DNA of 64,000 nucleotides from NCBI RefSeq assembly GCF_001999285.1, contig NZ_MLHN01000008.1, positions 1-64,000 on the forward strand, in the 5' to 3' direction. The stretch comes from Rodentibacter genomosp. 1 (lineage in GTDB: Bacteria; Pseudomonadota; Gammaproteobacteria; Enterobacterales; Pasteurellaceae). The translations under genes and the position numbers were made by a program. Within the stretch, counting starts at the first letter, position 1. Each line of letters opens with the position of its first letter. The notes under the pieces were generated by a model. It saw only the letters and a list, made by a program, of their open reading frames with translations, did not search any database and was not told the origin of the DNA. Of the stretch, positions 10,581-27,405 are shown piece by piece.

Positions 10581-10607
10581 TGTAAAAACCCACTAAAACT
10601 AAGAAAT
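10581..10607 (+). other. Left terminus and L1-type transposase site
   Basis: After TGTAAA the sequence AACCCACTAAAACTAAGAAA aligns, at the same 6-base offset from the end, with the reverse complement of the right-end site GAGCCAAAAAAACTGCGAAA. It is the presumed terminal transposase A binding site. Inner partners are at 11109-11163, unusually far away. Confidence 0.65.
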
Positions 10608-10663
10608 AAAAAGAAACAATGGATTGGCGGAATTTTGTTGTAATAAACGGAATTAACTTGACC

Positions 10664-10691
10664 TTGAACAAAAATAAAAATGGAATATAAT
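10664..10691 (+). promoter_or_regulatory. Promoter of the left-end cargo gene
   Basis: TTGAAC (10664-10669), a 16-bp spacer and a perfect TATAAT (10686-10691). Transcription should start near 10698. This rules out the upstream ATG at 10680 and supports the start at 10725. Confidence 0.7.
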
Positions 10692-10724
10692 GGGATTGAG
10701 CGAAATAAAAAAAAGGGAAAGAAA

Positions 10725-11054
10725 ATGGCAAGAAAATCGTTTATTACAGCTTTGCCGAAAGAAATAGTGGAAGCGTTGCACGAGCGAATCAGAGCGGCGG
10801 AATATGGTGACCATATGGCAATGGTGGAGTGGGTAAAGCAGCAAGGCTATCATGCTTCTAAATCGGCAATGTGCCGCTATACGTTGGAATTAAAGGCAAG
10901 AGATGGGTATGAGGGCGGAGCGGGGTCATTTAAGTTACACACCCAAATGCACAGCAAAGACAGCAACCTTGAAATGCTTTATAAAGAACTGGGTGAACTC
11001 GAATATCGCCGGCAAGAAATTTTAAACAGAATTCGGGATTTAATGGGAAAATAA
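10725..11054 (+). CDS. Left-end cargo protein related to DUF3486 (Mu gp27-like N-terminus)
   Basis: A 109-residue protein with its own promoter, ribosome site (AAGGGA) and terminator. Residues 1-55 (ALPKEIVEALHERI ... SKSAMCRYTLEL) resemble the N-terminal helix-turn-helix-like part of the DUF3486 protein encoded later at 21257 (LLPPNIKTTLTMML ... SKTGLNRFASKM). The remainder is a coiled-coil tail (ELGELEYRRQEILNRIRDL). It lies outside the repressor and should be expressed in the lysogen. The role is unknown; a DNA-binding or exclusion function is possible but only inferred. Confidence 0.75.
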   Translation: MARKSFITALPKEIVEALHERIRAAEYGDHMAMVEWVKQQGYHASKSAMCRYTLELKARDGYEGGAGSFKLHTQMHSKDSNLEMLYKELGELEYRRQEILNRIRDLMGK

Positions 11055-11063
11055 CCAAACACA

Positions 11064-11084
11064 GGGGCAACACGCCCCTTTTTT
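11064..11084 (+). terminator. Terminator after the left-end cargo gene
   Basis: GGGGC-N5-GCCCC followed by TTTTTT. Confidence 0.85.
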
Positions 11085-11101
11085 ATTGCCCGAAATCCGG
11101 C

Positions 11102-11163
11102 AAAAAGCAAAACTGCGAAAAAATCTCCAAAAACCACTACTTGAGCCATTAAAACCACGAAAA
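11102..11163 (+). other. Inner left-end transposase sites (L2/L3-type)
   Basis: Two copies of the motif that recurs at the right end: AAAACTGCGAAAA at 11109-11121 and GAGCCATTAAAACCACGAAAA at 11143-11163 (20 of 21 bases as in the copy at 45165-45185). They lie 520-580 bp from the terminus, with a gene between them and L1. Confidence 0.65.
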
Positions 11164-11174
11164 CGCACGGCACG

Positions 11175-11222
11175 TTTAAACGCGTTTAAATTTTGTTTAA
11201 ATGGCGTTTAGCTGTGTTTAAA
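11175..11222. repeat. Phased TTTAAA array 1
   Basis: Starts at 11175, 11185, 11196, 11207 (variant TTTAGC) and 11217: spacings of 10, 11, 11 and 10 bp. It fills the gap between the inner end sites and the 3' end of the repressor gene. Confidence 0.8.
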
Positions 11223-11882
11223 TTAATCCCACTGCACTGTGTGGGCGTACCAGCGCACTTGCCCGATAATCATTGTAGGGTCGATTTGATCTGCGGTGAG
11301 ATGAATCGGATGGTAGTCAGGGTTGTCCGATAGCACATAAAGCCCTTTAGGTAAGTCAAACTGCAAGCGACGAATGGTTAACCTATTATTGATACGCACC
11401 ACATAAAGCCCTTCTTTAAGCCGCCACACGTCTTCTAACGTTGCCAGCCCACGTTTCACCTTGTCGTGGAAGAATAGCGTTATCAAAGCCCTATCACCCT
11501 TGTAAATAGTGCGTTCCATTGCATTATCTGGCATTTTGAAGAACGTGCTGTGCGCAATGCTTATCGCCATTTTTTTTAACCAATCCGTGCGGAAGTGGAA
11601 GTATTTTCGCATCACGCCGCTTTCTGTTACGGAGAGATCCGGTATTTGTTCAAACTCATCGCCCTTTTGAGTAAAGCCATCTTGGCTTACATCAAAGCCC
11701 AACGCCGCTTGCACGCTTGGCGGCATATCGCCCACATAATACTCAAACACTTTTCCTTTGACGCCTGTAATGCGTCTTCTTTGCCAATTTTCTAATTTAG
11801 CCTTTTTGGTAATTCCTTGAACAGTGGTAGGTAATCCCCCCACTCCTGTTAGTTCTTTTAATTCAAACCATTCTTGGATCAT
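11223..11882 (-). CDS. Mu-type repressor (c) with inactive-looking S24 domain
   Basis: Lysogeny repressor, the only leftward gene of the early region. Residues 1-60 form the Mu-type winged helix (FELKELTGVGGLP ... ITKKAKLENWQRRR), closely matching the N-terminus of transposase A, so both should recognise related sites. The C-terminal half resembles LexA/S24 dimerisation-autocleavage domains (RTIYKGDRALI ... GLYVVRINNRL ... LYVLSDNPDYHPI). In that alignment the catalytic Ser of the usual DSM triplet is Ala121 (NAM) and the catalytic Lys is Arg171. ATG 11882 is preferred over GTG 11888 because AAAGGGG lies just upstream. 219 residues. Confidence 0.85.
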   Translation of the reverse strand: MIQEWFELKELTGVGGLPTTVQGITKKAKLENWQRRRITGVKGKVFEYYVGDMPPSVQAALGFDVSQDGFTQKGDEFEQIPDLSVTESGVMRKYFHFRTDWLKKMAISIAHSTFFKMPDNAMERTIYKGDRALITLFFHDKVKRGLATLEDVWRLKEGLYVVRINNRLTIRRLQFDLPKGLYVLSDNPDYHPIHLTADQIDPTMIIGQVRWYAHTVQWD

Positions 11883-11891
11883 ATCCACCCC

Positions 11892-11920
11892 TTTAGTTTT
11901 AATCTTGGATTAAAACTAAA
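11892..11920. promoter_or_regulatory. Repressor operator, perfect 13-bp palindrome
   Basis: TTTAGTTTTAATC and GATTAAAACTAAA are exact inverted copies separated by TTG. The site touches the repressor ribosome site and covers its probable -10. The half-site AGTTTTAATCT recurs at 11996-12006 and 12019-12029. It is the likely target of repressor and Ner. Confidence 0.75.
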
Positions 11921-11943
11921 TTGAAAGAAGTTTTTACACTCAA
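11915..11943 (-). promoter_or_regulatory. Probable repressor promoter (leftward)
   Basis: On the minus strand TTGAGT (11943-11938), a 17-bp spacer, then TTTAGT (11920-11915) inside the palindrome. Repressor bound there would shut off its own gene. Confidence 0.45.
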
Positions 11944-12007
11944 CCTATTGAAAATAAAGGGAATTAAAAGAGGTTGCATAAAAGCTCGAAAAAATAGTTT
12001 TAATCTC

Positions 12008-12037
12008 TTGTTGACTTTAGTTTTAATCTTGTATTAA
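12008..12037 (+). promoter_or_regulatory. Early promoter region (rightward, towards ner-A-B)
   Basis: TTGTTG (12008-12013) with TATTAA (12032-12037), spacer 18 bp; TTGACT at 12011-12016 is an alternative -35 with a 15-bp spacer. An operator half-site AGTTTTAATCT lies inside the spacer, as expected for a repressed early promoter. Confidence 0.5.
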
Positions 12038-12125
12038 ACTCTAGATTAAACCAAAGGCTAACGCTAAGGATTTACACCAGAGTTTAACCTAAAGCAAGTT
12101 TGATTTAAATGTAGGAGTTTAATTT

Positions 12126-12356
12126 ATGGCTAAAAAAGATTGGAGCAGAAAGCGAATTGTGTATGAGCTGCACGAGCGAAATATCACATTGCATTCGCTT
12201 TCTGTGAAATCGGGACTTGCCCCCTCCACGCTAAAAAATGCATTGCGGGTAAGTTATCCGAAAGGGGAAAAGATCATCGCTGAAGCGATTGGCGTGCCTC
12301 CTCAAGAAATTTGGGCAACACGCTATGCGGAACGGGAGAGCCGCTTATGTGGGTAG
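12126..12356 (+). CDS. ner: Ner-type transcriptional regulator
   Basis: A 76-residue helix-turn-helix protein of the Ner/Nlp family (DWSRKRIVYELHERN ... LAPSTLKNALRVSYPKGEKIIAEAIGVPPQEIWATRYA). In Mu, Ner dampens early and repressor transcription after infection. It is the first early gene, behind a GGAG box, and overlaps the start of transposase A by 10 bases. Confidence 0.92.
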   Translation: MAKKDWSRKRIVYELHERNITLHSLSVKSGLAPSTLKNALRVSYPKGEKIIAEAIGVPPQEIWATRYAERESRLCG

Positions 12357-14316
12357 AACTGAAAGATATATTGGGAGTCGGTGGATTACCCAAAACTGTT
12401 GGGGGAATAACTAAAAAAGCTAAATTAGAGAATTGGGAGCGGAGACGAAAAGAAAGTCCAGTTGGAAAAGTATTTGAATACCACCTCCACAGCCTTCCCC
12501 CCGAAACCCAAAAGCAATTAAGGCTTAACGCCGCTTTGGCGGCAATGCCACCGCCTACAACGGCACAACCGATGGATGACCCCGAGCTGATTTATCGGCT
12601 CACCAGTGCCACCGACAAGGCAAGGGAAAAGGCGAAAAACAAAGCAGAAGCCTGTATGCAACTGCAAGCCTTTTTAGACCAAGGGTTCAATTATCAAGAG
12701 GCAGAAGCGGGGGCGGCAACCGCAAAAAACGTGTCGCAAGGTTCTTTAAAAAATTGGTATTACAAAGTGAAAGGCTACCCCGTCCACCTGTGGCAAGCGA
12801 TTTTAGTGTCAGGCTCGGGCAAATCCGCCAAGCCCGGTAAAAAAGCCCACATCACCGAAGAAGCGTGGGACACCTTCCTTGCTGATTATCTCCGCCCTGA
12901 AAAGCCCGATTTACGAGCCAGTTACCGCCGCATTGAGGCAATGGCGAAAGAATACGGCTGGCAGATGGCAAGTTTTAAAACCTTCCAACGTCGCTTAATC
13001 AAAGAAGTGCCATACGAGGTGCTACTGCTTCAGCGAGAGGGCAAAAATGCGGTGGCGAAATTAGTGCCAGCGTTGCAACGCACGGTAAAAGATATTCTCG
13101 CAGGCGAATGGATCAACGGCGACGGTTATCAACACAACGTCTTTGTGAAATGGCACACGGGCGAGATTATCCGCCCAAAAACGTGGTTCTGGCAAGATGT
13201 GCGAACCCGCAAAATTCTTGCTTATCGCACCGCACTTTCGGAAAACACCGACAGCATACGTCACGCCTTAATGGACGTGATATTCCGCTACGGCATACCG
13301 AAAACCATCACGCTGGACAACACCCGAGCCGCAGCCAATAAAGCGATGACAGGCGGCGTAGCAAACCGCTACCGCTTTAAAGAAAACGAACTCGACCCGA
13401 AAGGCATTATGCCGATTTTAGGCATCGAAGTGCATTTCACTAGCGGCTTTATGGCGAAGGACACGGGCAAGCCAAGCCGATTGAACGCGCCTTCGGGCGA
13501 GGCGGCATAGGCGAGAAAGTGGATAAACGCCCCGAACTGTCGGGCTTCTACACGGGCAAAAACGTGCTAGAAAAACCCGACAACTACAACGGCGGTAAGG
13601 CTGGCGTGGAATATGACATCTTTCTGCAAGCCCTTGCAGCAGGCGTGAAAGAGTACAACGAACAACTGGAACGAGACACCGAACTTTGCCGAGGCAAGTT
13701 CAGTTTTGAACAGATTTGGGAACGGGATTACCACCCCACCAATATACGCCAAGCTACGCCAGAGCAGCTGCTGTTGCTGTTCTTGCAAGCGGAAACGGTG
13801 AGCATTAAACGTAACGGGGCATTCACCCTGAAAGCGGCAGGCAAACTGTACGGCTTAACCAACATTTACTGGGAGGAAAGTTTAATCGGCATCACCGATA
13901 AAAAAGTGGTGGCACGGTTCGACCCCGACAACCTACACGGCAATGTGTATGTGTACGACTTAGAAGGACGATACCTTGCCGAAGCGATTTGCCGAGAAGC
14001 GAAAGGCTTTGGCGACACAATCGCTTCTCGCGAGCAAGGCAGATTGTACAAGAAAGTGGTGAAATCGGCACAACAACAAGCCGAAGCCTTGCAGTTGTTA
14101 GACCAACACGAACTGGCAGCCCTCGCACCAAAAGTGGAGGTGCCAGAACCGATTGAAAAACGAGTGAAAGAAGTGCTGATTGAAGAAGAAGTGATCCACC
14201 AAAACCTCCGAATGAAAGTTCACAAAAAAGTGGAAATAGAAGAGGCAGAAGTGGAAGAAATCAGCGAATTTGAACAGGCATTTATGAATGCCGTCGCAAT
14301 GAAACGCAAGATTTAA
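12347..14316 (+). pseudogene. muA: Transposase A (MuA), frameshifted before the third catalytic residue
   Basis: DDE transposase that joins the phage ends to target DNA. From ATG 12347 (GGGAG box upstream) it shows the Mu-type N-terminal DNA-binding domain, then the integrase core with Asp259 (INGDGYQ) and Asp324 (ITLDNTR). The first frame stops at 13510 after 387 residues. The -1 frame opens at 13444 and continues GHGQAKPIERAFGRGGIG to 14316. Glu of AKPIER would be residue about 380. Spacings 65 and 56 match MuA Asp269-Asp336-Glu392, and the rejoined length of about 656 residues matches Mu A. One missing A in GCGAAGG (13454-13460) explains the shift. No slippery heptamer is present, so I treat it as a disabling mutation or a sequencing error. 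Confidence 0.9.
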
Positions 14317-14379
14317 ACGTAATTTAAACGTTTAAACGCCAATTTAAACATTTAAACGCACATTTAAACGAGGTTTAAA
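14312..14379. repeat. Phased TTTAAA array 2
   Basis: Seven copies starting at 14312, 14323, 14331, 14343, 14351, 14363 and 14374, between the end of A and the start of B. The last copies flank the B ribosome site (CGAGG). Confidence 0.8.
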
Positions 14380-14380
14380 A

Positions 14381-15298
14381 ATGAACTTAGTCAATCAAAT
14401 CAAACAACACTTAACCGACAGCCAAATCACTCAAGCCCAGCTTGCCCGCGAAGCAGGCGTAAATGCAGGTGCATTGTCGGCATACCTTAACGACAACTAT
14501 AAAGGCAACATTGCAGATGTGGAAGCAAAACTAACTGCTTACCTTGAGAAAAAAGCGGTGCAAGCCCGTGAGTTTGTAGAGGCACCAGCCTTTATCGAAA
14601 CAGCGACTTCTCGTCAAATTTTCAAAACGCTGGAATTTGCTCAAATCGCCAACTGTATGGCGACCGTTTACGGCATGAGCGGGGTCGGTAAAACCAAAGC
14701 AATCCAAGAATTTGCCAAAAACCACGCTAACGTGTGGCTGGTAACCGCAAGCCCAAGCCGTTCAAGTTTAAGCGAAATTTTGTATGAAATCGCCCTTGAG
14801 CTAGGCATCAGCGATGCCCCACGTAGAAAAGGCACACTCTCACGCCTGATTGCTCGCAAAATCAAAGGCACAGAAGGCTTGCTGATTGTGGACGAAGCCG
14901 ACCACCTTCCTTATGAGGCACTCGAAGAACTCCGTATTATGCAAGAAGAAGCCGGCATTGGCTTAGTGTTGGTAGGCAACGACAAAGTTTACACCCGCAT
15001 GAAAGGTGGTATTAGCCCAAGTCACGAATATGCAAGATTGTGGAGCCGTGTGGCAAAAAACACCAGCATCCAGAAAACCAAAAAGGCAGACACACAGGCA
15101 GTTGCCGCAGCGTGGGGGTTAGAAACCGACGAAGATGCTTTAAAAGTGATGCAAAGCATTACCGAAACAGGCGGCGGCTTACGCATTTTAACCCAAACCT
15201 TGCGATTGGCAGCAATGGTGGCAAAAGGCTCAGGCAAGCTGATTGATGCCGACTTAATCATCAAAGCACGCCAAGAATTATTAGGCAAAAACGAATAA
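14381..15298 (+). CDS. muB: Transposition target-capture ATPase B (MuB)
   Basis: AAA-type ATPase that binds target DNA, stimulates transposase A and gives target immunity. Residues 1-60 hold a helix-turn-helix (TQAQLAREAGVNAGALSAYL). Walker A is GMSGVGKT at 98-105 and Walker B is LLIVDEAD around Asp171. Length 305 residues, close to Mu B (312). It is intact although its partner A is broken. Confidence 0.93.
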   Translation: MNLVNQIKQHLTDSQITQAQLAREAGVNAGALSAYLNDNYKGNIADVEAKLTAYLEKKAVQAREFVEAPAFIETATSRQIFKTLEFAQIANCMATVYGMSGVGKTKAIQEFAKNHANVWLVTASPSRSSLSEILYEIALELGISDAPRRKGTLSRLIARKIKGTEGLLIVDEADHLPYEALEELRIMQEEAGIGLVLVGNDKVYTRMKGGISPSHEYARLWSRVAKNTSIQKTKKADTQAVAAAWGLETDEDALKVMQSITETGGGLRILTQTLRLAAMVAKGSGKLIDADLIIKARQELLGKNE

Positions 15299-15308
15299 GG
15301 AAAACGGT

Positions 15309-15626
15309 ATGAAAAAAATCTACAACGAAATGGCAGGCGAAATGATGATCCCTAAAAACGCCATTATTCACACTCAGCTAGCAATGCTTGAAATCGCCAC
15401 CCTTGAATGCGAAGCACTAGGGCTTGAGGTGGAAACAGTGGAATGGTTCGACAACAGTCGCCCTCGCTTAGTGGTAAAAGACTGTGCCACCTTACGCCAC
15501 TTAATGAAACAAAACAAAGCATTTAATTACGGCTCAGAAGTCAAAAACGGCACCCGTTTTTACCTCAACCAAATGATGCTCAAAGGCGTGAAAATCATTT
15601 GGAAATCCGATTCCCTTAAACATTAA
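15309..15626 (+). CDS. Early-region hypothetical protein
   Basis: A 105-residue protein, 10 bases after B and with AAGGA before its ATG, in the early operon between B and gam. No membrane segment or known motif; it looks like a small mixed alpha/beta protein. I do not recognise a family. Its position suggests an accessory early function, not essential in Mu. Confidence 0.7.
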   Translation: MKKIYNEMAGEMMIPKNAIIHTQLAMLEIATLECEALGLEVETVEWFDNSRPRLVVKDCATLRHLMKQNKAFNYGSEVKNGTRFYLNQMMLKGVKIIWKSDSLKH

Positions 15627-15640
15627 CCACAGGAGAAACT

Positions 15641-16159
15641 ATGAAAAAACCAACCCGCACCAAATCAGCTACGCTCACTATTCGCGCCCAAAGTCGTGAA
15701 GAAACGGAGTTACTGATTAAAGAATTAGGTGATGCCCAGCGTGAACTGCAACGACTAACCACCGAGCAGAATGATGAAATCGGTGCCATTACCGAGCGTT
15801 ATTCGCCTGCAATTCAATCGGCAAAAGAAGCAGTAGATATGCGACATAAAGCCATTCAAGCGTGGTGCGAAAGCCACCGTGATGAGCTGACCAAAAACGG
15901 AAAGCAAAAAACAGGCTATTTCAACACAGGCGAAGTGCAATGGCGACAAAGTCCACCAAGTGTGCGAGTTACCAAAGCTGATGAAGTGATTAAAAAACTA
16001 CGGGCATTAGGCTTGACGCAATTTATCCGCACCAAAGAAGAAATCAACAAAGATGCGATTTTGTTAGACCCAGCCACCGCTTCTGCTGTATCGGGTATTG
16101 CGATTAAAGCAGGCGTGGAAGAATTTAACGTAAAACCATTTGAGCAGGAGGCGAGATGA
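15641..16159 (+). CDS. gam: Host-nuclease inhibitor Gam
   Basis: DNA-end-binding protein, the phage counterpart of Ku, which shields phage DNA from exonucleases. The 172 residues show the long N-terminal helices (ETELLIKELGDAQRELQRL), the TGYFNTGEVQWRQSPPSVRV core and the typical end KAGVEEFNVKPFE. It has an AGGAGA box 5 bases upstream. Its stop overlaps the next start as ATGA. Confidence 0.93.
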   Translation: MKKPTRTKSATLTIRAQSREETELLIKELGDAQRELQRLTTEQNDEIGAITERYSPAIQSAKEAVDMRHKAIQAWCESHRDELTKNGKQKTGYFNTGEVQWRQSPPSVRVTKADEVIKKLRALGLTQFIRTKEEINKDAILLDPATASAVSGIAIKAGVEEFNVKPFEQEAR

Positions 16160-16452
16160 GAAAGCCAAAACAAAAGCTCTGCACGATGCCGAATATCTGC
16201 CTATTTATGCTGATGATAAGCAGTATATCAGGCATGACATTGGTCTGGTTTTTCCCTGTTATCGATCAAGCACTAATTTGGAACTCCATCGTGTTTTTAT
16301 GCTGGGTGGTTTATTTCGAGGTTCGTGGCTTAAAAGATTGGGGCGAACACAATCTTGAGCAATTAGTGAAGATGGCTGAAGTTTCCGCAGCAGCAGCTTA
16401 CAAAATTAATCAACATGGTGGCAAAGTGATAATGAATGGTAAGGAGATGTAA
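16156..16452 (+). CDS. Small membrane protein of the early region
   Basis: A 98-residue protein coupled to gam (ATGA). Two hydrophobic segments (about residues 11-33 and 39-55) are followed by a soluble tail (WGEHNLEQLVKMAEVSAAAAYK). No family recognised. Its stop overlaps the next micro-gene (TAATG). Confidence 0.7.
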   Translation: MRKPKQKLCTMPNICLFMLMISSISGMTLVWFFPVIDQALIWNSIVFLCWVVYFEVRGLKDWGEHNLEQLVKMAEVSAAAAYKINQHGGKVIMNGKEM

Positions 16453-16526
16453 TGAGTGCCCCCGTAATTTGCTTAATCGTTGCCAGCGTACTATCGCTTA
16501 TCGTGCTGTATTTAGAGCAAGACTAA
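16452..16526 (+). CDS. 24-residue single-pass membrane micropeptide
   Basis: Starts inside the stop of the preceding gene (TAATG), with AAGGAG upstream. It encodes MSAPVICLIVASVLSLIVLY followed by LEQD: one hydrophobic helix with an acidic end. The coupling, the ribosome site and the membrane-like composition support translation. Function unknown. Confidence 0.55.
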   Translation: MSAPVICLIVASVLSLIVLYLEQD

Positions 16527-16532
16527 AGCCTA

Positions 16533-16604
16533 TTTAAAAGCCCTTTAAATCTCCCCTAACCCCTCTTTACAAAAGAGGGGGACGGATTGAGGGGCTTTCA
16601 AAAT
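16533..16604. repeat. TTTAAA pair and CCCCTCTTT hairpin
   Basis: TTTAAA at 16533 and 16544 (11 bp apart) precede a stem-loop whose arms are CCCCTCTTT and AAAGAGGGG. Outer CCCCT and AGGGG repeats extend it. It may act as a terminator or a small palindromic repeat. Confidence 0.6.
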
Positions 16605-16630
16605 ATGTTTTAACCCACAGGAGAAAACCG

Positions 16631-16843
16631 ATGAAAACCAAACGACCATACGCCAAAAGCGTGGAAAACTTCAACCGATACCGCTTTTATGCGGAAAAAG
16701 CGGCAAAAGAAGAACAAGCCGGCAATTACAAAGAAGCCGAAACCCATTGGGATTTAGCAATGCTTTCTGCCAGCCCCGAAAACAAAGAATGGGCAATCCG
16801 CCGTCGTGATTTCTGCCAATGTATGCATCAACGTCCGTTTTAG
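16631..16843 (+). CDS. ANR-family regulator
   Basis: A 70-residue protein with the ANR signature: YRFYAEKAAKEEQAGNYKEA, then WDLAMLSA, then WAIRRRDFCQC. Characterised ANR proteins bind AraC/XylS-family activators and block them. It has AGGAGA upstream. The family call is from motif memory. The target here is unknown, but the element sits in an arabinose locus with its own araC. Confidence 0.75.
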   Translation: MKTKRPYAKSVENFNRYRFYAEKAAKEEQAGNYKEAETHWDLAMLSASPENKEWAIRRRDFCQCMHQRPF

Positions 16844-16851
16844 GAGGAACA

Positions 16852-17070
16852 ATGACAACCCAAACCTTAAATTTAGATGATGTTATGCGTGAAGTCGCTG
16901 ATGTGATTAGCAATTTTGAACTGGTGCAATCTTGCGTATTAGACGGTGATATTGAAACGGCAAAAACAATGTATGCCAGAACATTAGAACAGGCAAAAAA
17001 ATTCGGTCGCCGTTTAGCTTATAGTGAAATCAAAATGGAATTCGGAGCTGTGTTTGATCCGAATTGTTAA
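16852..17070 (+). CDS. Early-region hypothetical protein
   Basis: A 72-residue acidic helical protein starting MTTQTLNLDDVMREVADVIS. ATG 16852 is chosen because a perfect AGGAGG at 16842-16847 precedes it. No known motif. It sits among the small early genes before gemA. Confidence 0.7.
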   Translation: MTTQTLNLDDVMREVADVISNFELVQSCVLDGDIETAKTMYARTLEQAKKFGRRLAYSEIKMEFGAVFDPNC

Positions 17071-17146
17071 AGCAGATTTACAGCCTATTTTAACCGCACT
17101 TTGAGTAGGCTGAATAATGTGTTTTAAACTAAATAATGGAGTAAAA

Positions 17147-17380
17147 ATGCTAAAAGAAAGTGATTTAATTGTAGATCATTATTACATAGCCAAAAATCCC
17201 AAAAAGATAAATGGATTTATTCCCAAGAGATGTATTATCAAGCTAGATAATAGTGAAGGGTATGTTGTTTATGTTGAATTAAAAGCACTTAAGAATGGAG
17301 CGAAAGGGACGCTAAAAACTGTATCTATTCCATCATTTTTAAGATGGGCAGGAAAAGATATAACAGGTAAGGAGCAATAA
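17147..17380 (+). CDS. Early-region hypothetical protein
   Basis: A 77-residue lysine-rich protein (MLKESDLIVDHYYIAKNPKK). ATG 17147 follows GGAG; the upstream ATG 17117 lacks a ribosome site. The DNA is more AT-rich than its neighbours, and a Haemophilus-type uptake core (ACCGCACTT) sits at about 17094. Its stop overlaps the gemA start (TAATG). No family recognised. Confidence 0.65.
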   Translation: MLKESDLIVDHYYIAKNPKKINGFIPKRCIIKLDNSEGYVVYVELKALKNGAKGTLKTVSIPSFLRWAGKDITGKEQ

Positions 17381-17937
17381 TGACTGACAAAGCCAAACTA
17401 ATCCAGCTGCTCCATATTGGCAAACAGCAGCTTAATATGGACGAATTCAGCTACCGCGAAATGGTCAAACGGCTGACCAATAAAACCAGCTCGACCAAAT
17501 GCACTATCGTAGAGTTGCACAAAATCTTACATGAGCTGCAACAAAAAGGGGCTAAAGTAAAATGGTTCGCAAAACGCAGCACAAAACCGACCGCTTACAG
17601 CCCAGCCACAGGCGAGGTCAAAGTCAAAAGTGAAATTGCCCACAAAATCCGTGCTGTGTGGATTCAAATGGGCAAGCACGGCTTCTTGCGAGATGGCAGC
17701 GAAAAAGCCTTAAACACCTATATGCGTAAAGTGATGAACCAAGGCAAAACGGTGCTGGCGCTAAATGTCGGGGCGTTAAAAGGCGAGGAAGCCAGCCGAT
17801 TTCTGGAAATCTTGAAAAAATGGCACAAGCGTGTAATGCTCAAAACCCTTGCTGAAAAATACGGCTGTATTGTGAGCAAAGAAACCAGCTATGATAAACT
17901 TTGTTTAGTCTTTCAACGCTATCAGGGGGTGGTATGA
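17380..17937 (+). CDS. gemA: GemA regulatory protein (Mu gp16 family, DUF1018)
   Basis: 185 residues with the GemA pattern: KLIQLLHIGKQQLNMDEFSYREM, then TKCTIVELHKIL, then HKIRAVWIQMGKHGFLRDGSE. In Mu it alters host gene expression and DNA topology late in the early phase. It is coupled at both ends (TAATG upstream, ATGA downstream). Confidence 0.9.
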   Translation: MTDKAKLIQLLHIGKQQLNMDEFSYREMVKRLTNKTSSTKCTIVELHKILHELQQKGAKVKWFAKRSTKPTAYSPATGEVKVKSEIAHKIRAVWIQMGKHGFLRDGSEKALNTYMRKVMNQGKTVLALNVGALKGEEASRFLEILKKWHKRVMLKTLAEKYGCIVSKETSYDKLCLVFQRYQGVV

Positions 17938-18488
17938 AATTATGCCGTTGCCCCATTTGCCACAGCGATATTCACTTGGAGGGTTTAATCGAAGACGATG
18001 CAGGGCGTGAACTGCTTGGCAAAATTAGCCAACTTACCCACGGTTGTGCACAACCGATGGTTGGTTACTTAGGCTTATTTAAGCCAGCCAAAAGTAACCT
18101 CAACAACGCCCGTGCGTTAAAAATTGTCAGCGATGTATTAGAACTTTACCCTTGCTCGTTGTTACTGGCACAGGCATTATCCGAAACGGTGGCAAGCCTG
18201 CGTAAAAAACGCCAACAAGCCTTGCAAGCGGGGCAAAAAATCGAACCGCTTACCAATCATAACTACCTCAAATCGGTGTATGAAACGCAAAAGCCGCACT
18301 TTGCTGTCATTCGCACCGATAAAAATCGGTCGGAAGCGGTCAAAGCCCAACAAGCGGAAGAGAAGAAAACGCAAGATGCGATTTTATACGTTGAACGTTT
18401 TGTACAACTCGGACAGGAAGAATTTGTGAAAAGCAGCCCCGAATATCAAATCTGGCTGCAACACAAACAGCAAAAACAAGCCCTTTAA
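17934..18488 (+). CDS. Hypothetical protein with an N-terminal Cys motif, end of the early operon
   Basis: 184 residues beginning MKLCRCPICHSDIHLEGL; the Cys/His cluster may bind zinc. The rest is helical and basic, ending in a Gln/Lys-rich coiled coil. ATG 17934 overlaps the gemA stop. No named family recalled with confidence. A terminator follows at 18509. Confidence 0.75.
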   Translation: MKLCRCPICHSDIHLEGLIEDDAGRELLGKISQLTHGCAQPMVGYLGLFKPAKSNLNNARALKIVSDVLELYPCSLLLAQALSETVASLRKKRQQALQAGQKIEPLTNHNYLKSVYETQKPHFAVIRTDKNRSEAVKAQQAEEKKTQDAILYVERFVQLGQEEFVKSSPEYQIWLQHKQQKQAL

Positions 18489-18508
18489 ACTCTCTTTAAA
18501 CTTTCCCC

Positions 18509-18532
18509 AAGGCGGTTCACGCCGCCTTTTTT
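18509..18532 (+). terminator. Terminator of the early operon
   Basis: AAGGCGG / CCGCCTT with a 6-base loop and six T. Two TTTAAA copies 11 bp apart (18484, 18495) precede it. Confidence 0.88.
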
Positions 18533-18691
18533 CTTGCCTTAAATCTCCCTTTTCAAACTTTTTTATTTTTCGCTAAGCCTTGCTATATCAGGCTTTAAGC
18601 CACTTTTTACCTTACGTTAAGAAAAATTGTGCTAGTGGGAAATTTTAGTTTTTGTACAATAGTCACATTGATAAATTGAATTGGGTACGCT

Positions 18692-19126
18692 ATGTCGCAA
18701 ACATTACAACAAACAGGCTTATTTGATGATGAACACGCCAATATTGGAGCGTTGTTCGACCATTTAGACCAAATTCCAAGTGTAGAATTAGAAAATCGCT
18801 GGCCGTCACTATTGGTGGAAGTCATAGATGTAATGCAAGCGGAGCTATTACGCCAAAATTTTGCAGAAGATAAAGCAAAAACGACCGCTTCCAAGCTCGT
18901 GGGCGTAATGGCACACTATTTTGGTGGCAAATCGTTTTATCTACCGGCCGGTGATAAAATCAAAGAAGCCTTGCGAGATGGACAAATTTACCAAGAATTT
19001 AACGGCAAGAACGTGCCGGAGCTTGTGAAAAAATATCGTTTGTCAGAAAGCACAATTTATGCGATCTTACGCCAACAACGTATGCTGCAGAGAAAGCGGC
19101 ATCAAATGGATTTTAATTTTAGTTAG
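18692..19126 (+). CDS. mor: Mor/C-family middle-late transcription activator
   Basis: 144 residues with the Mor fold: N-terminal dimer part (RWPSLLVEVIDVMQAELLRQNF), then GGKSFYLPAGD, and a C-terminal helix-turn-helix (VPELVKKYRLSESTIYAILRQQRM). In Mu, Mor and C switch on middle and late promoters. Only one such gene is visible here, so it may serve both steps. It stands alone between a terminator and the lysis genes, so it needs its own promoter; TACAAT at 18655-18660 is a possible -10 without a good -35. Confidence 0.9.
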   Translation: MSQTLQQTGLFDDEHANIGALFDHLDQIPSVELENRWPSLLVEVIDVMQAELLRQNFAEDKAKTTASKLVGVMAHYFGGKSFYLPAGDKIKEALRDGQIYQEFNGKNVPELVKKYRLSESTIYAILRQQRMLQRKRHQMDFNFS

Positions 19127-19168
19127 GTTTGATAATCCGCAAACACCACCTAAATACTTTTCCTCCTA

Positions 19169-19206
19169 AACTCCAGTTATCAAGGCAATGATAACTGGAG
19201 TTTTTT
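19169..19206 (+). promoter_or_regulatory. Hairpin that contains the endolysin ribosome site
   Basis: AACTCCAGTTATCA (19169-19182) and its exact reverse complement (19189-19202) form a 14-bp stem with loop AGGCAA, followed by T to 19206. The GGAG at 19197-19200, the only ribosome site for the ATG at 19207, lies in the 3' arm. The structure can act as a terminator for mor and as a translation block for the endolysin. Confidence 0.75.
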
Positions 19207-19749
19207 ATGTCTTTACCTATCTACAAAATCATCGTGCATTGCTCGGCAACACGCAATGGCAAATCCCTTAAACAAGCTGGCAAAACTGCTGCACAAGTCA
19301 TTGATGGCTGGCACAAAAAACGTGGCTTTAAACGTCAGCCTGCGGCACAACGTGCATTTAATCCACACCTATCCTCTATTGGTTATCACTTTGTGATTGA
19401 CGTGGACGGCTTGGTCGAAAGTGGTCGTCAAGTGGGGGAAATTGGCGCACACGTTAAAGGACACAACCAAAACTCGGTAGGCATTTGCTTGGTCGGTGGC
19501 ATTACCGCAAGTGGCAAAAACCACGCTGAATATACCGAAGCACAATGGCAATCACTGCATAAACTCTTGCGTGATTTAGAAGCATTCAACCCGGAAGCCC
19601 TTACTTATGGTCACCGTGATTTATCGCCCGACCTCAATGGCGATGGCACGATCACCCCAAATGAATGGCTGAAAGATTGCCCGTGTTTTGATGTGTGGGC
19701 GTGGCTGGATTCGGGAGAAGTGGTGAATGTAGAACACCTTTATAAATAA
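19207..19749 (+). CDS. N-acetylmuramoyl-L-alanine amidase endolysin
   Basis: Zinc amidase (Amidase_2, T7 lysozyme-like) that cuts the peptide stem from muramic acid for lysis. 180 residues, no signal peptide. Probable zinc ligands are His11 (IIVHCSAT), His136 (YGHRDLSP) and Cys158 (KDCPCFD). Between the last two lies an insertion with a perfect EF-hand-like loop, Asp142-x-Asn144-x-Asp146-Gly-x-Ile149-x3-Glu153. It is the first late gene, directly after a strong hairpin. Confidence 0.93.
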   Translation: MSLPIYKIIVHCSATRNGKSLKQAGKTAAQVIDGWHKKRGFKRQPAAQRAFNPHLSSIGYHFVIDVDGLVESGRQVGEIGAHVKGHNQNSVGICLVGGITASGKNHAEYTEAQWQSLHKLLRDLEAFNPEALTYGHRDLSPDLNGDGTITPNEWLKDCPCFDVWAWLDSGEVVNVEHLYK

Positions 19750-19762
19750 GGAGTAACAAGCA

Positions 19763-19999
19763 GTGCGATTTACAGAACTTTTTACCAATGCCGATGGGCG
19801 ACTTTCTACCACCGCAAGCATTCAGTTTTGGGGTTTTATTGCAGCCACCGGCGTGCTGCTTTATTCCGTCTATTTAGACAAGCCCTATGTGCCTGAAATG
19901 TTCAGCACCTTTTTATTTGCGTGTGTAGGCACTGCTGCCACTAAAGGCGTGGCAAATGCTTTATCACGCCAACGAGAAAACAGGAGAGAAAGCGAATGA
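19763..19999 (+). CDS. Holin-like membrane protein (DUF2644-like)
   Basis: 78 residues from GTG 19763 with AAGGAG upstream. Two hydrophobic segments (about residues 20-38 and 44-65) and a charged tail RQRENRRESE. Placed between endolysin and spanins, it is the best holin candidate. DUF2644 is recalled from FluMu-type prophages. The stop overlaps the next start. Confidence 0.75.
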   Translation: MRFTELFTNADGRLSTTASIQFWGFIAATGVLLYSVYLDKPYVPEMFSTFLFACVGTAATKGVANALSRQRENRRESE

Positions 20000-20250
20000 T
20001 GCATTTAATTTTAGTAGGTGTGGGCGTGGTGACATTATGGGGCGGTTACTTGCTTTTCCGCCTACGTCAAAGCCGTAAACAGGCACAAGCCTTACAAAAG
20101 CAAAACGAACAGCTACAAGCCCAAAAAGCCGTAGCCGAAACCAAAGTGAAAAATTACCAAGTTAAACAGAAAAATGAAGAAAATCTTATTAGCCGTAGCC
20201 GTACTAGCCTGCTTGAACGGTTGTACAACGACGGCGACCTCCGTGATTAA
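19996..20250 (+). CDS. Inner-membrane spanin, Rz-like (DUF2681-like)
   Basis: 84 residues: one N-terminal membrane segment (LILVGVGVVTLWGGYLLF) then a coiled coil (RKQAQALQKQNEQLQAQKAV). This is i-spanin architecture. The outer-membrane partner gene overlaps its 3' third in another frame, as with lambda Rz/Rz1. Confidence 0.8.
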   Translation: MMHLILVGVGVVTLWGGYLLFRLRQSRKQAQALQKQNEQLQAQKAVAETKVKNYQVKQKNEENLISRSRTSLLERLYNDGDLRD

Positions 20251-20368
20251 CCCAAGCTGTGCGGGCTTTAGCTTAATCAAAGCCAGTCGCCAAGATACCA
20301 CCGAAACGCTCAGGCAGGTTGCCGTGCATAATGCTACCTACCGTCAAATTTGTGAGGGACAAGAGTAA
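20174..20368 (+). CDS. Outer-membrane lipoprotein spanin, Rz1-like
   Basis: 64 residues. The lipoprotein signal KKILLAVAVLACLNGC ends at lipid-Cys17; the mature part is about 48 residues. It begins 77 bases before the end of the Rz-like gene in a different frame. Together they should fuse inner and outer membranes at lysis. The TAATG overlap couples it to the next gene. Confidence 0.8.
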   Translation: MKKILLAVAVLACLNGCTTTATSVINPSCAGFSLIKASRQDTTETLRQVAVHNATYRQICEGQE

Positions 20369-20574
20369 TGGCTGATGAATTAGATCGCACAAATGAGCGG
20401 GAAGAAGCCTTTTTGCAACAATGTCTTGCTCCACACCTTGATACTAAGCTCAGTGATGATGAAGTTGAAGCGATTGCAGAAGCTGGCAGACAATGTAGCG
20501 AATGTGGCTTACCTATTCCCAGCGCACGATTGCGTGCCAATCCTTACGCCCACCGTTGTGTGAGTTGTCAGTAA
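20368..20574 (+). CDS. TraR/DksA-family C4 zinc-finger protein
   Basis: 68 residues ending in a four-cysteine finger, CSECGLPIPSARL ... HRCVSC, after an acidic helix (LSDDEVEAIAEAG). Short phage TraR/DksA proteins bind the RNA polymerase secondary channel. In Mu-like phages this gene lies between the lysis and packaging genes. Confidence 0.88.
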   Translation: MADELDRTNEREEAFLQQCLAPHLDTKLSDDEVEAIAEAGRQCSECGLPIPSARLRANPYAHRCVSCQ

Positions 20575-20591
20575 GATTGGGAGGACGGACG

Positions 20592-20921
20592 ATGATTAGC
20601 GAATTTTGGGAATTTGTGCGAGCCAATTTTGGCGTAATTTCGACCATTATCGCCATTATTGCAGGGGCGTTTTGGCTCAAACTCGACAGCAAATACGCCA
20701 AAAAGCACGATTTAAGCCAGCTTGCCGAAATTGCCCGCAGTCACGATAACCGCTTGGCAACGCTTGAAAGCAAGGTGGAAAACCTCCCCACAGCGGTGGA
20801 CGTGGAACGCCTTAAAACCTTGGTGACCGATGTAAAAGGCGATACCAAAGCCACCAGTCGCCAAGTAGACGCAATGAGCCACCAAATGGGCTTGTTATTA
20901 GAAGCAAAATTAAAGGAATGA
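20592..20921 (+). CDS. DUF2730-like membrane-anchored coiled-coil protein
   Basis: 109 residues: N-terminal membrane helix (FGVISTIIAIIAGAFWLKL) followed by a coiled coil (SHDNRLATLESKVENL). ATG 20592 follows GGAGG. It matches Mu gp25-type proteins by position. The stop overlaps the next ATG (ATGA). Confidence 0.75.
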   Translation: MISEFWEFVRANFGVISTIIAIIAGAFWLKLDSKYAKKHDLSQLAEIARSHDNRLATLESKVENLPTAVDVERLKTLVTDVKGDTKATSRQVDAMSHQMGLLLEAKLKE

Positions 20922-21223
20922 TGAAAATGTCGTTAAAAGATTTAATTAAACAAGACCAGCGTTTAGTGATTTTACGCTCGCTTGTTGACACAGGCTACGA
21001 TGCCAACGAATCTATTTTAGATGATTGTCTTGCCCTTTACGGGCATAAAATCAGCCGTGATTTGGTGCGTAACCACCTCAACTGGCTAGAAGAACAAGAC
21101 CTCGTGAAAATTGAACGCCTGGGTAACGGCTTTATGATTGCCAAAATTACCCAGCGTGGACTTGATGTGGCAAATGGCGAAGCTGTGGTTGATGGCGTAA
21201 AAAAGCCCTCCCCTAAAATTTAA
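20918..21223 (+). CDS. Mu gp26-like winged-helix protein
   Basis: About 100 residues with a winged-helix outline (QRLVILRSLVDTGYDANESILDDCLALYG ... RDLVRNHLNWLEEQDLVKIERL). Members recalled as the VpaChn25_0724 family precede DUF3486 in Mu-like phages. ATG 20918 overlaps the upstream stop; ATG 20927 is an alternative. Confidence 0.8.
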   Translation: MMKMSLKDLIKQDQRLVILRSLVDTGYDANESILDDCLALYGHKISRDLVRNHLNWLEEQDLVKIERLGNGFMIAKITQRGLDVANGEAVVDGVKKPSPKI

Positions 21224-21257
21224 GCTGAGTTTAAAGCCAATTTAAAGGAGGTTTAAA
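21219..21257. repeat. Phased TTTAAA array 3
   Basis: TTTAAG at 21219 and TTTAAA at 21230, 21241 and 21252, exactly 11 bp apart. The ribosome site AGGAGG lies between the last two. Confidence 0.8.
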
Positions 21258-21826
21258 TGAGTGAAAAAAACACCCGAGGGCGTGCCAGCAAGGTCGATTT
21301 ACTACCACCGAATATCAAAACCACTCTCACAATGATGTTGCGAGATAAACAATACTCGCAAGCTGAAATCCTTGAGGAAATTAACAACATCATTGCAGAC
21401 AGTGGCTTAGATGAATCAATGCAGCTTTCTAAAACGGGGCTAAATCGTTTTGCATCAAAAATGGAACGGTTCGGCAAAAAAATCCGCGAAGCCCGTGAAG
21501 TGGCAGAAGTGTGGACAAAGCAACTAGGCGAAGCCCCGCAAAGTGATATTGGCAAATTGTTGATGGAAGCGGTAAAAACAATGGCATTTGATTTAACCTT
21601 AAATGCCGATGAAGCTATTGCCAATGATCCTAAATTTTTAAATCAACTGGCTTTAATCGCCAACCGCATTGAGCAAGCCCAAAGCGTGAGCTATGAACGT
21701 GAACGTAAAGTGCGAAAAGAAGTCGCATTACAAGCCGCCGAAACCGCAGAAAAAGCCGTCGCACAAGCAGGACTTTCTGCCGATACCGTCGCACAAATCA
21801 AGCAACAAATTCTAGGAATTGCCTAA
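21257..21826 (+). CDS. DUF3486 protein, small-terminase candidate (Mu gp27)
   Basis: 189 residues. N-terminal DNA-binding-like region GRASKVDLLPPNIKTTLTMM ... SKTGLNRFASKM, then helices and a coiled-coil tail. Located directly before the large terminase, where a small terminase is expected. The left-end cargo protein at 10725 shares its N-terminal pattern. Confidence 0.9.
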   Translation: MSEKNTRGRASKVDLLPPNIKTTLTMMLRDKQYSQAEILEEINNIIADSGLDESMQLSKTGLNRFASKMERFGKKIREAREVAEVWTKQLGEAPQSDIGKLLMEAVKTMAFDLTLNADEAIANDPKFLNQLALIANRIEQAQSVSYERERKVRKEVALQAAETAEKAVAQAGLSADTVAQIKQQILGIA

Positions 21827-23352
21827 TGCAAGCCTTACCCGACTTAATCCCCTTTGACCCAAACGCCTTACTGCTTGGCTATCAAAAACGCTGGGTGGCA
21901 GATACCAGTCAGCTCAAAATTGCCGAAAAATCCCGACGCACCGGTTTAACGTGGGCAGAAGCGGCTGATGACGTGATGATAGCGAGCCTTGCCAAATCGG
22001 AGGGCGGTTCAGATGTGTTTTATATCGGCTCGAACAAAGAGATGGCACGAGAATTTATTGATGCTTGTGCGATGTGGGCAGCCCAATTTAACCGTGCAGC
22101 CGGGCAAATCCAAGAAGAACTCTTTGAAGACGAAGACAAAGACATTCTCACCTATGTGATCTACTTTGCTTCAGGCTTTAAAATCAAAGCCCTTTCCTCC
22201 AACCCGAAAAACTTGCGCGGTATGCAAGGGGTGGTGTGCATTGATGAAGCGGCATTCCACGAAAAATTAGCCGAAGTGCTAAAAGCTGCCTTGGCACTCA
22301 CGATGTGGGGTGCGAAAGTGCGGTTGATTTCCACCCATAATGGTGTGGATAACCTCTTCAATCAACTGATTCAAGACAGCCGTGCAGGTCGAAAAAGCTA
22401 TTCGGTGCATACCATCACCCTTGATGATGCCTGTGCAGAAGGCTTATATCAGCGTATTTGCCAAGTCAGCAAACAGCCTTGGACGCCTGAAAAAGAAGCG
22501 GCGTGGAAAGCTGGTCTGTTGCGTGAAACCGCCACTGAAGACGATGCACTGGAAGAATACTACTGCGTGCCAAAAGCCAGTTCTGGGGCGTATATCCCAC
22601 GCCCAATGATTGAGCGTGCAGCGACAGAAGGCAAGGTCAAACTGCGTTTTGAGTGCGACACCAAATTTATGGAATGGACAGAAGACGAACGCACGGTCAT
22701 CACCAGTGAATTTTGCCTTACTCAATTACTACCGCACTTGCAAGCCTTCAACCCTGACCGCCGACACGCCTTTGGGGTGGACTTTGCCCGCAGTGCCGAC
22801 TTGAGTGTGTATGCCGTTTGTGCCGTGCAACCCGACACCGCCCGGCATTTTGAACTGACACTTGAAATCAAAAACTGTCCGTACAACCAGCAAAAGCAAA
22901 TAATGCTGTTTATGTTAGCAAACCTGCCTCGTTTTATTGGAGCCGCATTCGATGCCACGGGGAATGGTGGCTATTTAGCAGAGGCGGCACTTATTCGCTA
23001 TGGTAGCAGTATGATCGAAGCCGTGCAGTTAAATGATAAGTGGTATCGGGAATGGATGCCGAAATATAAAGCCTTGTATGAATCGGGCTATATTCAAATT
23101 CCGAAAGATGAAGAGATCATCTTAGACCACGGGCATATTCAGGTAATTAACGGCGTGCCGAAAATTGACAAATCACGCTCAAAAGACAAATCGGGCAAAC
23201 GCCACGGCGATAGTGCGGTGGCGTATTGTATGGCGGTGCGTGCGAGTTATATGACAGGCGGTGAAATTGATTTCATTCCACTGCCTGACAAACATTCCGA
23301 CCGCAACAATGATGAATTTGATGACTTAATGTCCAGCGATTGGGACTGGTAA
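21826..23352 (+). CDS. Terminase large subunit (Mu gp28)
   Basis: Packaging ATPase and nuclease; 508 residues. Walker A-like motif EKSRRTGLTW near residue 33, Walker B VVCIDEAAFH near 139, coupling motif RLISTHNG, and nuclease-domain acidic residues FGVDFARSAD and AAFDATGNGG. The 5' end overlaps the preceding stop (TAATG). Confidence 0.94.
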   Translation: MQALPDLIPFDPNALLLGYQKRWVADTSQLKIAEKSRRTGLTWAEAADDVMIASLAKSEGGSDVFYIGSNKEMAREFIDACAMWAAQFNRAAGQIQEELFEDEDKDILTYVIYFASGFKIKALSSNPKNLRGMQGVVCIDEAAFHEKLAEVLKAALALTMWGAKVRLISTHNGVDNLFNQLIQDSRAGRKSYSVHTITLDDACAEGLYQRICQVSKQPWTPEKEAAWKAGLLRETATEDDALEEYYCVPKASSGAYIPRPMIERAATEGKVKLRFECDTKFMEWTEDERTVITSEFCLTQLLPHLQAFNPDRRHAFGVDFARSADLSVYAVCAVQPDTARHFELTLEIKNCPYNQQKQIMLFMLANLPRFIGAAFDATGNGGYLAEAALIRYGSSMIEAVQLNDKWYREWMPKYKALYESGYIQIPKDEEIILDHGHIQVINGVPKIDKSRSKDKSGKRHGDSAVAYCMAVRASYMTGGEIDFIPLPDKHSDRNNDEFDDLMSSDWDW

Positions 23353-23363
23353 GGACAAGCCAA

Positions 23364-24926
23364 ATGCAAAGTAAAATTTTAGATATTCACGGCAACCCAT
23401 TCCGCTTTGAAGCCGATATGCAAACCGAAAGCGAAAGCCGGTTAATGCCGCTGCAATACCATTACAGCGACCACCCGGCCAGTGGGCTAACCCCTGCCAA
23501 AGCTGCACGCATTCTGCGAGCAGCCGAGCAAGGCGATTTAGTCGCACAAGCAGAGCTTGCCGAAGATATGGAGGAAAAAGATACCCATATTTTATCAGAA
23601 CTGGGCAAACGCCGTGGGGCAATTACCGCTGTGGATTGGCAAATTAAGCCCCCACGCAATGCCACACCTGAAGAACAACGTGATGCGGAAATGCTGCAAG
23701 AAATGCTGGAAGATGCCGTATGGTTAGACGATTGCATTTTTGATGCCACCGATGCCATTTTAAAAGGCTTATCTTGCCAAGAAATTGAGTGGGAACAAAA
23801 TTTAGTCGGTGGCTTGAAGTTGATAAAAAACGTGCATTGGCGTGACCCGGCGTGGTTTATGACCCCCGCTTATCAACGTAACAGCCTTCGCCTGCGTGAT
23901 GGCACGCTTGAGGGTGCAGAAATGCAACAGTTCGGCTGGGTGAAACACGTTGCACGAGCCAAAACAGGCTATTTAAGCCGTATTGGGTTAGTTCGCACTT
24001 TAGTCTGGCCGTTCATCTTTAAAAACTATTCCGTGCGTGATTTTGCCGAGTTTTTAGAAATCTACGGCTTACCACTGCGTTTGGGCAAATACCCCGAAGG
24101 GGCAACCGACAAGGAAAAACAAACCCTACTGCGTGCGGTAATGAGTATCGGACACAACGCTGGTGGGATTATTCCGCGTGGTATGGAACTCGAATTTGAA
24201 AAAGCGGCAGACGGCTCAGACAGCACCTTTATGGCAATGATTGAGTGGGCAGAAAAATCAGCCAGCAAAGCCATTTTAGGCGGCACGCTCACCAGCCAAG
24301 CAGATGGGGCAACAAGCACCAACGCCCTTGGCAATGTGCATAATGATGTGCGGTTAGAAATTCGCAATGCCGACCTAAAACGCCTTGCAGCCACACTCAC
24401 CCGTGACTTGGTGTATCCGCTCTATGCCTTAAATTGCAAATCGTTCAACGACGCACGCCGAATTCCACGTTTTGAATTTGATGTGGCAGAAAGTGAGGAT
24501 TTAAACGCCTTTGCTGACGGACTAAATAAATTGGTGGATATTGGCTTCCGTATTCCGAAACAGTGGGCGCACGATAAATTGCAAGTGCCAATCGCAGCGG
24601 AAAACGAGGAAGTGTTGGCAAAATCTTTCCAAAATCCGACCGCTTATATGCACGGCAAAACAGACGGTAAAATGGCAGTATTATCGGTGCAACCCGACCC
24701 CGAAGATCTACTGGATAACTTAGAACCCACAGCAGAAGATTATCAAGCCGTTATCGACCCACTATTAAAACCAGTGGTCGAAGCCTTGCAAAAAGGCGGT
24801 TATGAGTTCGCCCAAGAAAAACTGGCAACCCTTTATGCCGAAATGAACGATGAAGGGCTGGAAACCTTGCTCACCCGCGCCATTTTTGTCAGCGATTTAT
24901 TAGGACGAGCCAATGCCAAACGATAA
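23364..24926 (+). CDS. Portal protein (Mu gp29, DUF935)
   Basis: 520 residues from ATG 23364, which follows AAGGA. DUF935 pattern: RGAITAVDWQIKPP, then QEIEWEQNLVGGLKLIKNVHWRDP, then RDFAEFLEIYGLPLRLGKYP. It forms the dodecameric vertex through which DNA passes. The stop overlaps the next gene by 14 bases. Confidence 0.93.
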   Translation: MQSKILDIHGNPFRFEADMQTESESRLMPLQYHYSDHPASGLTPAKAARILRAAEQGDLVAQAELAEDMEEKDTHILSELGKRRGAITAVDWQIKPPRNATPEEQRDAEMLQEMLEDAVWLDDCIFDATDAILKGLSCQEIEWEQNLVGGLKLIKNVHWRDPAWFMTPAYQRNSLRLRDGTLEGAEMQQFGWVKHVARAKTGYLSRIGLVRTLVWPFIFKNYSVRDFAEFLEIYGLPLRLGKYPEGATDKEKQTLLRAVMSIGHNAGGIIPRGMELEFEKAADGSDSTFMAMIEWAEKSASKAILGGTLTSQADGATSTNALGNVHNDVRLEIRNADLKRLAATLTRDLVYPLYALNCKSFNDARRIPRFEFDVAESEDLNAFADGLNKLVDIGFRIPKQWAHDKLQVPIAAENEEVLAKSFQNPTAYMHGKTDGKMAVLSVQPDPEDLLDNLEPTAEDYQAVIDPLLKPVVEALQKGGYEFAQEKLATLYAEMNDEGLETLLTRAIFVSDLLGRANAKR

Positions 24927-26253: not shown

Positions 26254-26254
26254 A

Positions 26255-26345
26255 ATAGGGTAGCCTATTTGCTACCCTATCTATCGTGTGGTGGGGGTCG
26301 AACGCCACAGTGATAGGAATTATTCCTATTGGTTTACCATTAACC
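26255..26345. other. Structured intergenic region with three hairpins
   Basis: Perfect 10-bp stem ATAGGGTAGC / GCTACCCTAT (26255-26280), 8-bp stem ATAGGAAT / ATTCCTAT with a 1-base loop (26313-26329), and GGTT / AACC around 26331-26345. No T-run follows the first stem, so it is a weak terminator at best. It lies between the F gene and a small gene with its own strong ribosome site. Confidence 0.55.
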
Positions 26346-26410
26346 GACACACTATCTTTGAATGAGAATATGCTTTTATTGTGACAAAGTCAAACAAAAC
26401 AGGAGGAAAT

Positions 26411-26774: not shown

Positions 26775-26815
26775 TTGGATTTCCTTTTAAATTACGGGCA
26801 ACCTTACCCAAGGCT

Positions 26816-26821
26816 ATTATA
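26816..26821 (-). promoter_or_regulatory. -10 element for the leftward small gene
   Basis: Perfect TATAAT on the minus strand, about 42 bases before the ATG at 26774. No good -35 is visible at 16-18 bp. Confidence 0.4.
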
Positions 26822-27255: not shown

Positions 27256-27334
27256 GCTAAAATCGCAAATATCGCCACAGAGCCACGCTAAGGGCGTTTG
27301 AAAATCAATTTATATCATTTTACGTCTCAAAAAA

Positions 27335-27388: not shown

Positions 27389-27405
27389 GCTTTCTTAAAT
27401 TCTCC

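Follow-up and report, generated by a model that had tools for sequence, protein, structure and literature searches.

A Mu-type prophage repressor of Rodentibacter genomosp. 1 with an S24-like domain that lacks the catalytic Ser and Lys

A Mu-like prophage of Rodentibacter genomosp. 1 encodes a repressor with a LexA-like C-terminal domain, in which other residues stand at the positions of the Ser and Lys of self-cleavage. This raises the question whether such a repressor is still cleaved upon RecA activation and, if it is not, whether the prophage is insensitive to DNA damage, as the original prediction had concluded. The window is the whole stretch of DNA that was analysed, 64,000 nucleotides of contig NZ_MLHN01000008.1, and the following features define the prophage and its repressor region.

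10581..45249, no strand: Mu-like prophage, delimited by eye, within a gene which we take to be araH
10576-10580 and 45250-45254: 5-bp direct repeat AGCAG flanking the prophage
11223..11888, minus strand: c-type repressor gene, starting with ATG at 11882 or possibly with GTG at 11888; stop codon 11223-11225
11697..11858, minus strand: Mu-type winged HTH of the repressor, residues 9-62 (Pfam HTH_Tnp_Mu_1, E 4.7e-11)
11256..11606, minus strand: S24-like domain (LexA/CI C-terminal fold), residues 93-209 (Pfam Peptidase_S24, AlphaFold2 model, PDB fold hits)
12126..12356, plus strand: ner-like regulator, divergent from the repressor gene (HTH_35; phrog_769)
12311..13510, plus strand: Mu A-type transposase, first ORF, with an N-terminal HTH 62% identical to the repressor HTH
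13519..14316, plus strand: second ORF of the split Mu A-type transposase gene, in a different frame
14381..15298, plus strand: Mu B-type transposition protein

As the AGCAG repeat shows, the prophage has inserted close to the beginning of the sugar-transporter gene. Gam-like and late-activator genes are also present in the prophage. At its left end, beyond the repressor gene, lies an ORF (10680-11054) with an N-terminal match to Mu gp27, the gene of which is found among the head genes in Mu, and the right end (44106-45126) holds a short ORF, by eye presumably a Mu Com, together with a DNA methyltransferase gene (phrog_56, E 2.3e-41). DNA searches found no close relative of the prophage in E. 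coli genomes and none among phages, where nine records were returned, the best covering 8% of the query. The same genome harbours on contig C2 a second Mu-like locus (L003/L191), whose repressor has an intact AG segment, Ser and Lys and adjoins ner- and B-like matches.

The repressor ORF of the window is uninterrupted from end to end and comprises 219 amino acids from the ATG at 11882 or 221 from the GTG at 11888. For its HTH the PDB sequence matches are MuA (1tns) and Mu c (1g4d/1qpm), while the Peptidase_S24 match (E 1.1e-8) reaches 35.2 bits against a cut-off of 23.3. An AlphaFold2 model, built from a hand-picked input alignment of 26 sequences, has a mean pLDDT of 86.7 and a pTM of 0.64. 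When this model was compared with the PDB by Foldseek, the top match was LexA (best E 1.9e-5); the C-domain of 186 CI (E 2.0e-3), UmuD' and the lambda CI C-domain were found too, as were the HTH domains of MuA and Mu c, and the search against viral models returned CI- and LexA-like repressors. Because of the place of the gene in a Mu-like prophage, divergent from ner and the Mu A and B genes with operator-like repeats in between, and because of its make-up with an N-terminal Mu-type HTH, we regard the protein as the c-type immunity repressor.

That Ala121 and Arg171 occupy the positions of the catalytic Ser and Lys had been proposed from the sequence of the repressor, and an alignment with 67 further distinct S24 proteins, the host LexA among them, confirms both positions as well as their numbering.

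11520..11522, minus strand: codon of Ala121, at the catalytic Ser position in the alignment with S24 proteins
11370..11372, minus strand: codon of Arg171, at the catalytic Lys position in the same alignment
11421..11459, minus strand: insert of about 13 residues (about 142-154) between the Ser and Lys positions, seen from their spacing; about 9 residues in Pasteurella testudinis

For this comparison 181 loci were used, with 87 ORFs representing 68 distinct proteins that match an S24 profile built for this analysis; 36 of the 68 also have a Mu-type HTH. The Ser and Lys columns are anchored because the host LexA (L072) falls in the Ser/Lys class. Both residues are kept in 62 of the 68 proteins and both are lost in only two, the window repressor (Ala/Arg) and a repressor of P. 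testudinis (L007; Gly/Arg). Two proteins have lost the Ser alone (L064 and L047; Ala/Lys) and one the Lys alone (L048; Ser/Arg), and the remaining protein (L070) is truncated before the Lys position. An order-wide search added eight loci with seven S24 proteins, five with Ser/Lys and two with Asn/Lys (L199, L200); the eighth, L198, has a stop within the match and gave no S24 protein. The four phage repressors that were read separately all keep Ser and Lys, among them those of MuM16-1 and of 3927AP2, the latter identical to L140 over the stretch used for the tree. Three of 16 loci fetched (L057, L066, L071) encode no S24 protein; two have transposase-like ORFs, judged by eye, and one a short-tailed repressor. 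The window repressor is thus a member of the S24 (LexA/CI) fold family by profile match and fold, and it has neither the catalytic Ser nor the catalytic Lys of the self-cleaving S24 peptidases.

The further claim that the fold motifs are otherwise kept was right for the fold and the profile match, but not for the region of the cleavage segment, which is missing, nor for the spacing, which is altered by the insert. None of the dipeptides AG, CG or AA occurs 15-50 residues before the Ser position in the window repressor, where a single SG is found; this stretch contains one of them in 58 of the 68 S24 proteins and in 28 of the 36 with a Mu-type HTH. The eight exceptions with a Mu-type HTH are the window repressor, L007, L024, L059-L062 and L064. 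The missing dipeptide is not specific to dead domains, because five of these eight have an intact Ser and Lys and the repressor of MuM16-1, a phage released by mitomycin C, has Thr-Gly in this stretch. L059-L062 are Mu-HTH S24 repressors with Ser and Lys kept and no AG-type dipeptide in the usual stretch. The distance from Ser to Lys position is 36-39 residues in most of the proteins (usually 37), whereas the insert increases it to 50 in the window repressor and to 46 in L007; spacings of 41 or 45 are found in four members with an intact dyad. As both dyad residues and the Ala-Gly segment are missing, and a relative has the same double loss, the comparison supports well the prediction that the window repressor is not cleaved when RecA is active.

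This relative, from P. testudinis DSM 23072 (L007 and L045 are the same protein), is about 43% identical to the window repressor. It has the Gly/Arg pair, an insert and no Ala-Gly segment, and its S24 domain falls under the Pfam cut-off with 19.9 against 23.3 bits. Its gene is not part of a Mu prophage; L045 adjoins two tyrosine integrases as well as portal, terminase and GPO scaffold genes of the P2 type. The differing surroundings indicate that repressors of this kind occur in more than one type of phage.

How the dead domain arose can be approached by a quick tree, in which the two repressors form a clade of two (SH-aLRT 99), apart from a group of 32 rows holding most S24 domains of the same family with a Mu-type HTH. 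As 29 of 68 inner branches of this tree are open, the two trait columns were kept in it and the joining of the pair with L052 carries a long-branch warning, we rely on the pair only. In the order-wide search with a profile of the two C-domains the best non-self match is L193 (E 2.8e-18), an S24 protein that does not match the Mu-HTH profile, possesses AG, Ser and Lys and has FRTDWLKK and RLQFD in common with the window repressor. This likeness suggests that the dead domain probably came in as a module and became inactive in that lineage, and that it does not go back to point mutations in a sibling Mu repressor.

The dead C-domain was found only in the window phage and P. testudinis when genomes of the family, class and order, viral contigs, genome contigs, plasmids and phages were searched. 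P0001 was compared with 140 genomes of the family, and the two-row C-domain profile with 369 genomes of the class and 394 of the order, both even samples that partly overlap; the searches of viral and genome contigs preselect candidates by short peptide patterns, by which distant members can be missed. For the window phage, several of the loci recovered belong to a single identical IMG/VR contig (IMGVR_UViG_2791354953_000009).

For the DNA-binding part, the operator region between the repressor and ner genes has to be considered.

11892..11920, no strand: perfect inverted repeat with 13-bp arms and a 3-bp spacer, likely operator, just upstream of the repressor start
11995..12006, no strand: further copy of a 12-nt stretch of the operator, from the repeat search
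12015..12038, no strand: second operator copy, 96% identical to 11891-11914 over 24 nt

A perfect repeat with 13-bp arms arose in 1 of 1000 single-base shuffles of this 256-bp region, and five half-sites, the number found there, or more in 1 of 2000. Four relatives (L008, L037, L039, L009) have an HTH 81-86% identical to that of the window repressor, and their ORFs of 164-190 amino acids end in a short tail with no S24 match. They are thus built like Mu c, the HTH of which is a PDB match of the window repressor and the tail of which the host protease ClpXP targets. L187, which holds the repressor L008 (HTH 84%), has four half-sites at offsets nearly as in the window, and L189, with an active S24 domain in its repressor (L010; HTH 68%), has three half-sites of the same form. 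One half-site is present in L190 (repressor L011; short tail, HTH 68%) and none of that exact form in L188 (repressor L009; short tail, HTH 82.5%). The likeness to the operators of the window is thus clear for L187 and partial for L189, but not evident for L190 and L188. One type of HTH thus occurs with three different C-terminal parts, and the C-terminal module has accordingly been exchanged. The repressor of 3927AP2 from Mannheimia, L010 and L003 have the same domain order as the window repressor and are likewise divergent from ner, but they differ in keeping the AG segment, Ser and Lys.

Taken together, we consider it probable that the protein is the c-type immunity repressor of the Mu-like prophage and that its dead S24 domain most likely serves oligomerisation only and stays uncleaved. 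Through its Mu-type winged HTH the repressor would bind the inverted repeats of the c-ner region and in this way keep the transposition operon silent. Since the dyad and the Ala-Gly segment are both missing, the S24-fold domain most likely oligomerises, presumably forming dimers, and would not be cleaved under RecA. Release from lysogeny, if there is any, may then take another route such as an antirepressor, host proteolysis, temperature or fluctuation of the repressor level. It speaks against this explanation that only one full-length relative has the double loss.

Self-cleavage could in principle be restored by another Ser/Lys pair or by unusual chemistry, as five Ser and nine Lys residues are present in the window repressor from residue 77 on. 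However, Ser84, which lies in the linker ahead of the core, is the only Ser of this region that P. testudinis has as well, so a substitute dyad is not suggested, although four Lys (93, 104, 116, 156) are in common; as the usual cleavage segment is missing too, we regard this as highly improbable. A loss of the dyad by decay of the prophage, with the domain drifting without a maintained function, is also quite unlikely. The transposase gene is split, whereas in many relatives a single open frame of about 650-700 codons is found at this position, so parts of the prophage are decaying; the prophage may for this reason be unable to transpose or propagate, and induction into phage may be moot. Against this stand the full-length open frame of the repressor and the double loss together with an insert in P. 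testudinis, where the C-domain has about 44-45% identical residues (HTH 43%). In the C-domain the codon positions 1, 2 and 3 differ by 43, 30 and 68%, a comparison that stands in place of a formal dN/dS because the synonymous sites are saturated (NG86), and the conservation of second against third positions speaks for a dead domain that is being maintained, its role probably being oligomerisation. The double loss common to P. testudinis likewise points to a probably maintained state and not to a fresh mutation.

It is another matter whether an uncleaved repressor makes the prophage blind to DNA damage. The conclusion of a DNA-damage-insensitive prophage does not follow from non-cleavage alone, because the Gifsy repressors, described as uncleaved, answer the SOS response through LexA-controlled antirepressors (PMC3121763), and phage 186 is reported to be induced through the LexA-controlled antirepressor Tum (PMC7708051). 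The window prophage could respond by the same logic. In the host, lexA and recA are each preceded by a perfect CTGT-N8-ACAG box. In the prophage, an SOS-like site with one mismatch (16605-16620) is found 10 bp ahead of an early ORF of 70 amino acids, yet it is not kept before the two homologues found (L188, L189). In the prophage (10581-45249) no perfect box and five one-mismatch sites were found, and the 14 sites with at most one mismatch in the whole window compare with 14.95 expected by chance. The single perfect box among these 14 (4126-4141) lies outside the prophage, upstream of an ORF of 1146 codons (4215-7655). No known antirepressor or DinI family was matched by Pfam and PHROGs among 22 prophage ORFs, four of them scanned by Pfam only and some others by PHROGs only; these ORFs are mostly early genes and include only a minority of the late ORFs. 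A further point for such a response is the 186 CI protein (PDB 2fjr, 2fkd), the C-domain of which is among the fold hits and shows Gly and Arg in place of the dyad, like the P. testudinis repressor beside its P2-type genes, a lead only given the weak alignment (hhalign 5.2% probability; 6.2 bits in a one-sequence hmmsearch). Judging from the box search and the 22 ORFs scanned, we consider an SOS-controlled antirepressor of the Gifsy or Tum type unlikely in the window prophage. The missing perfect SOS box and the missing antirepressor match in these ORFs fit insensitivity to DNA damage, which is thus plausible but unproven.

Several known systems come close to the preferred reading, an uncleaved repressor with a dead oligomerisation domain. 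The N-terminal domain of 186 CI is not known to be of the Mu type. Phage 186 differs also in belonging to the P2 group and in carrying tum with a putative LexA site, whereas neither a tum-like gene in the 22, mostly early, ORFs scanned nor a perfect SOS box was found in the window prophage. The Gifsy repressors resemble the window repressor in not being cleaved on induction, here a prediction, but are described as small proteins (136 amino acids) without a cleavage signature and not with a dead S24 domain (PMC3121763), and the N15 repressor is also reported to be non-cleaved (PMC10432266). Concerning Mu-like phages with an S24 repressor, 3927AP2 is reported to be released by mitomycin C, and the Mu-like prophages of two other strains are not (PMC4553209). 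MuM16-1 is likewise described as released by mitomycin C, and its authors suggest that Mu-like repressors with an S24 domain are associated with mitomycin C induction and recommend this inducer where the domain is present (PMC8541194). Among the matches listed in the literature we found no Mu-type repressor with a dead S24 domain, which is a weak absence. Repressors that are not cleaved are therefore already known; the novelty lies in a Mu-type HTH combined with a dead S24 domain, and in C-terminal modules being exchanged behind a common DNA-binding domain.

Although the window repressor passes the S24 profile, it has lost the Ser/Lys dyad and the Ala-Gly segment, so that a prediction of its behaviour from the domain annotation alone would probably be wrong. 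If the repressor is uncleaved, DNA damage should not wake the prophage by the usual route. Together with the repressor of L003, which has an intact Ser/Lys pair and is encoded in the same genome, it offers a natural paired test of whether the C-terminal module determines the cue for induction. As a possible wider picture, which we put forward tentatively, Mu-like phages of the Pasteurellaceae may keep the type of HTH, and partly the operator layout, and swap the C-terminal module that decides what wakes them up. This module would be a short tail as in Mu, an S24 domain that is active and cleaved on DNA damage, or an inactive S24 domain that does not respond to damage. In that case the dead form in the window would have evolved as a means of remaining silent, and of silencing related phages, during the induction of an SOS-sensitive Mu-like prophage in the same cell.
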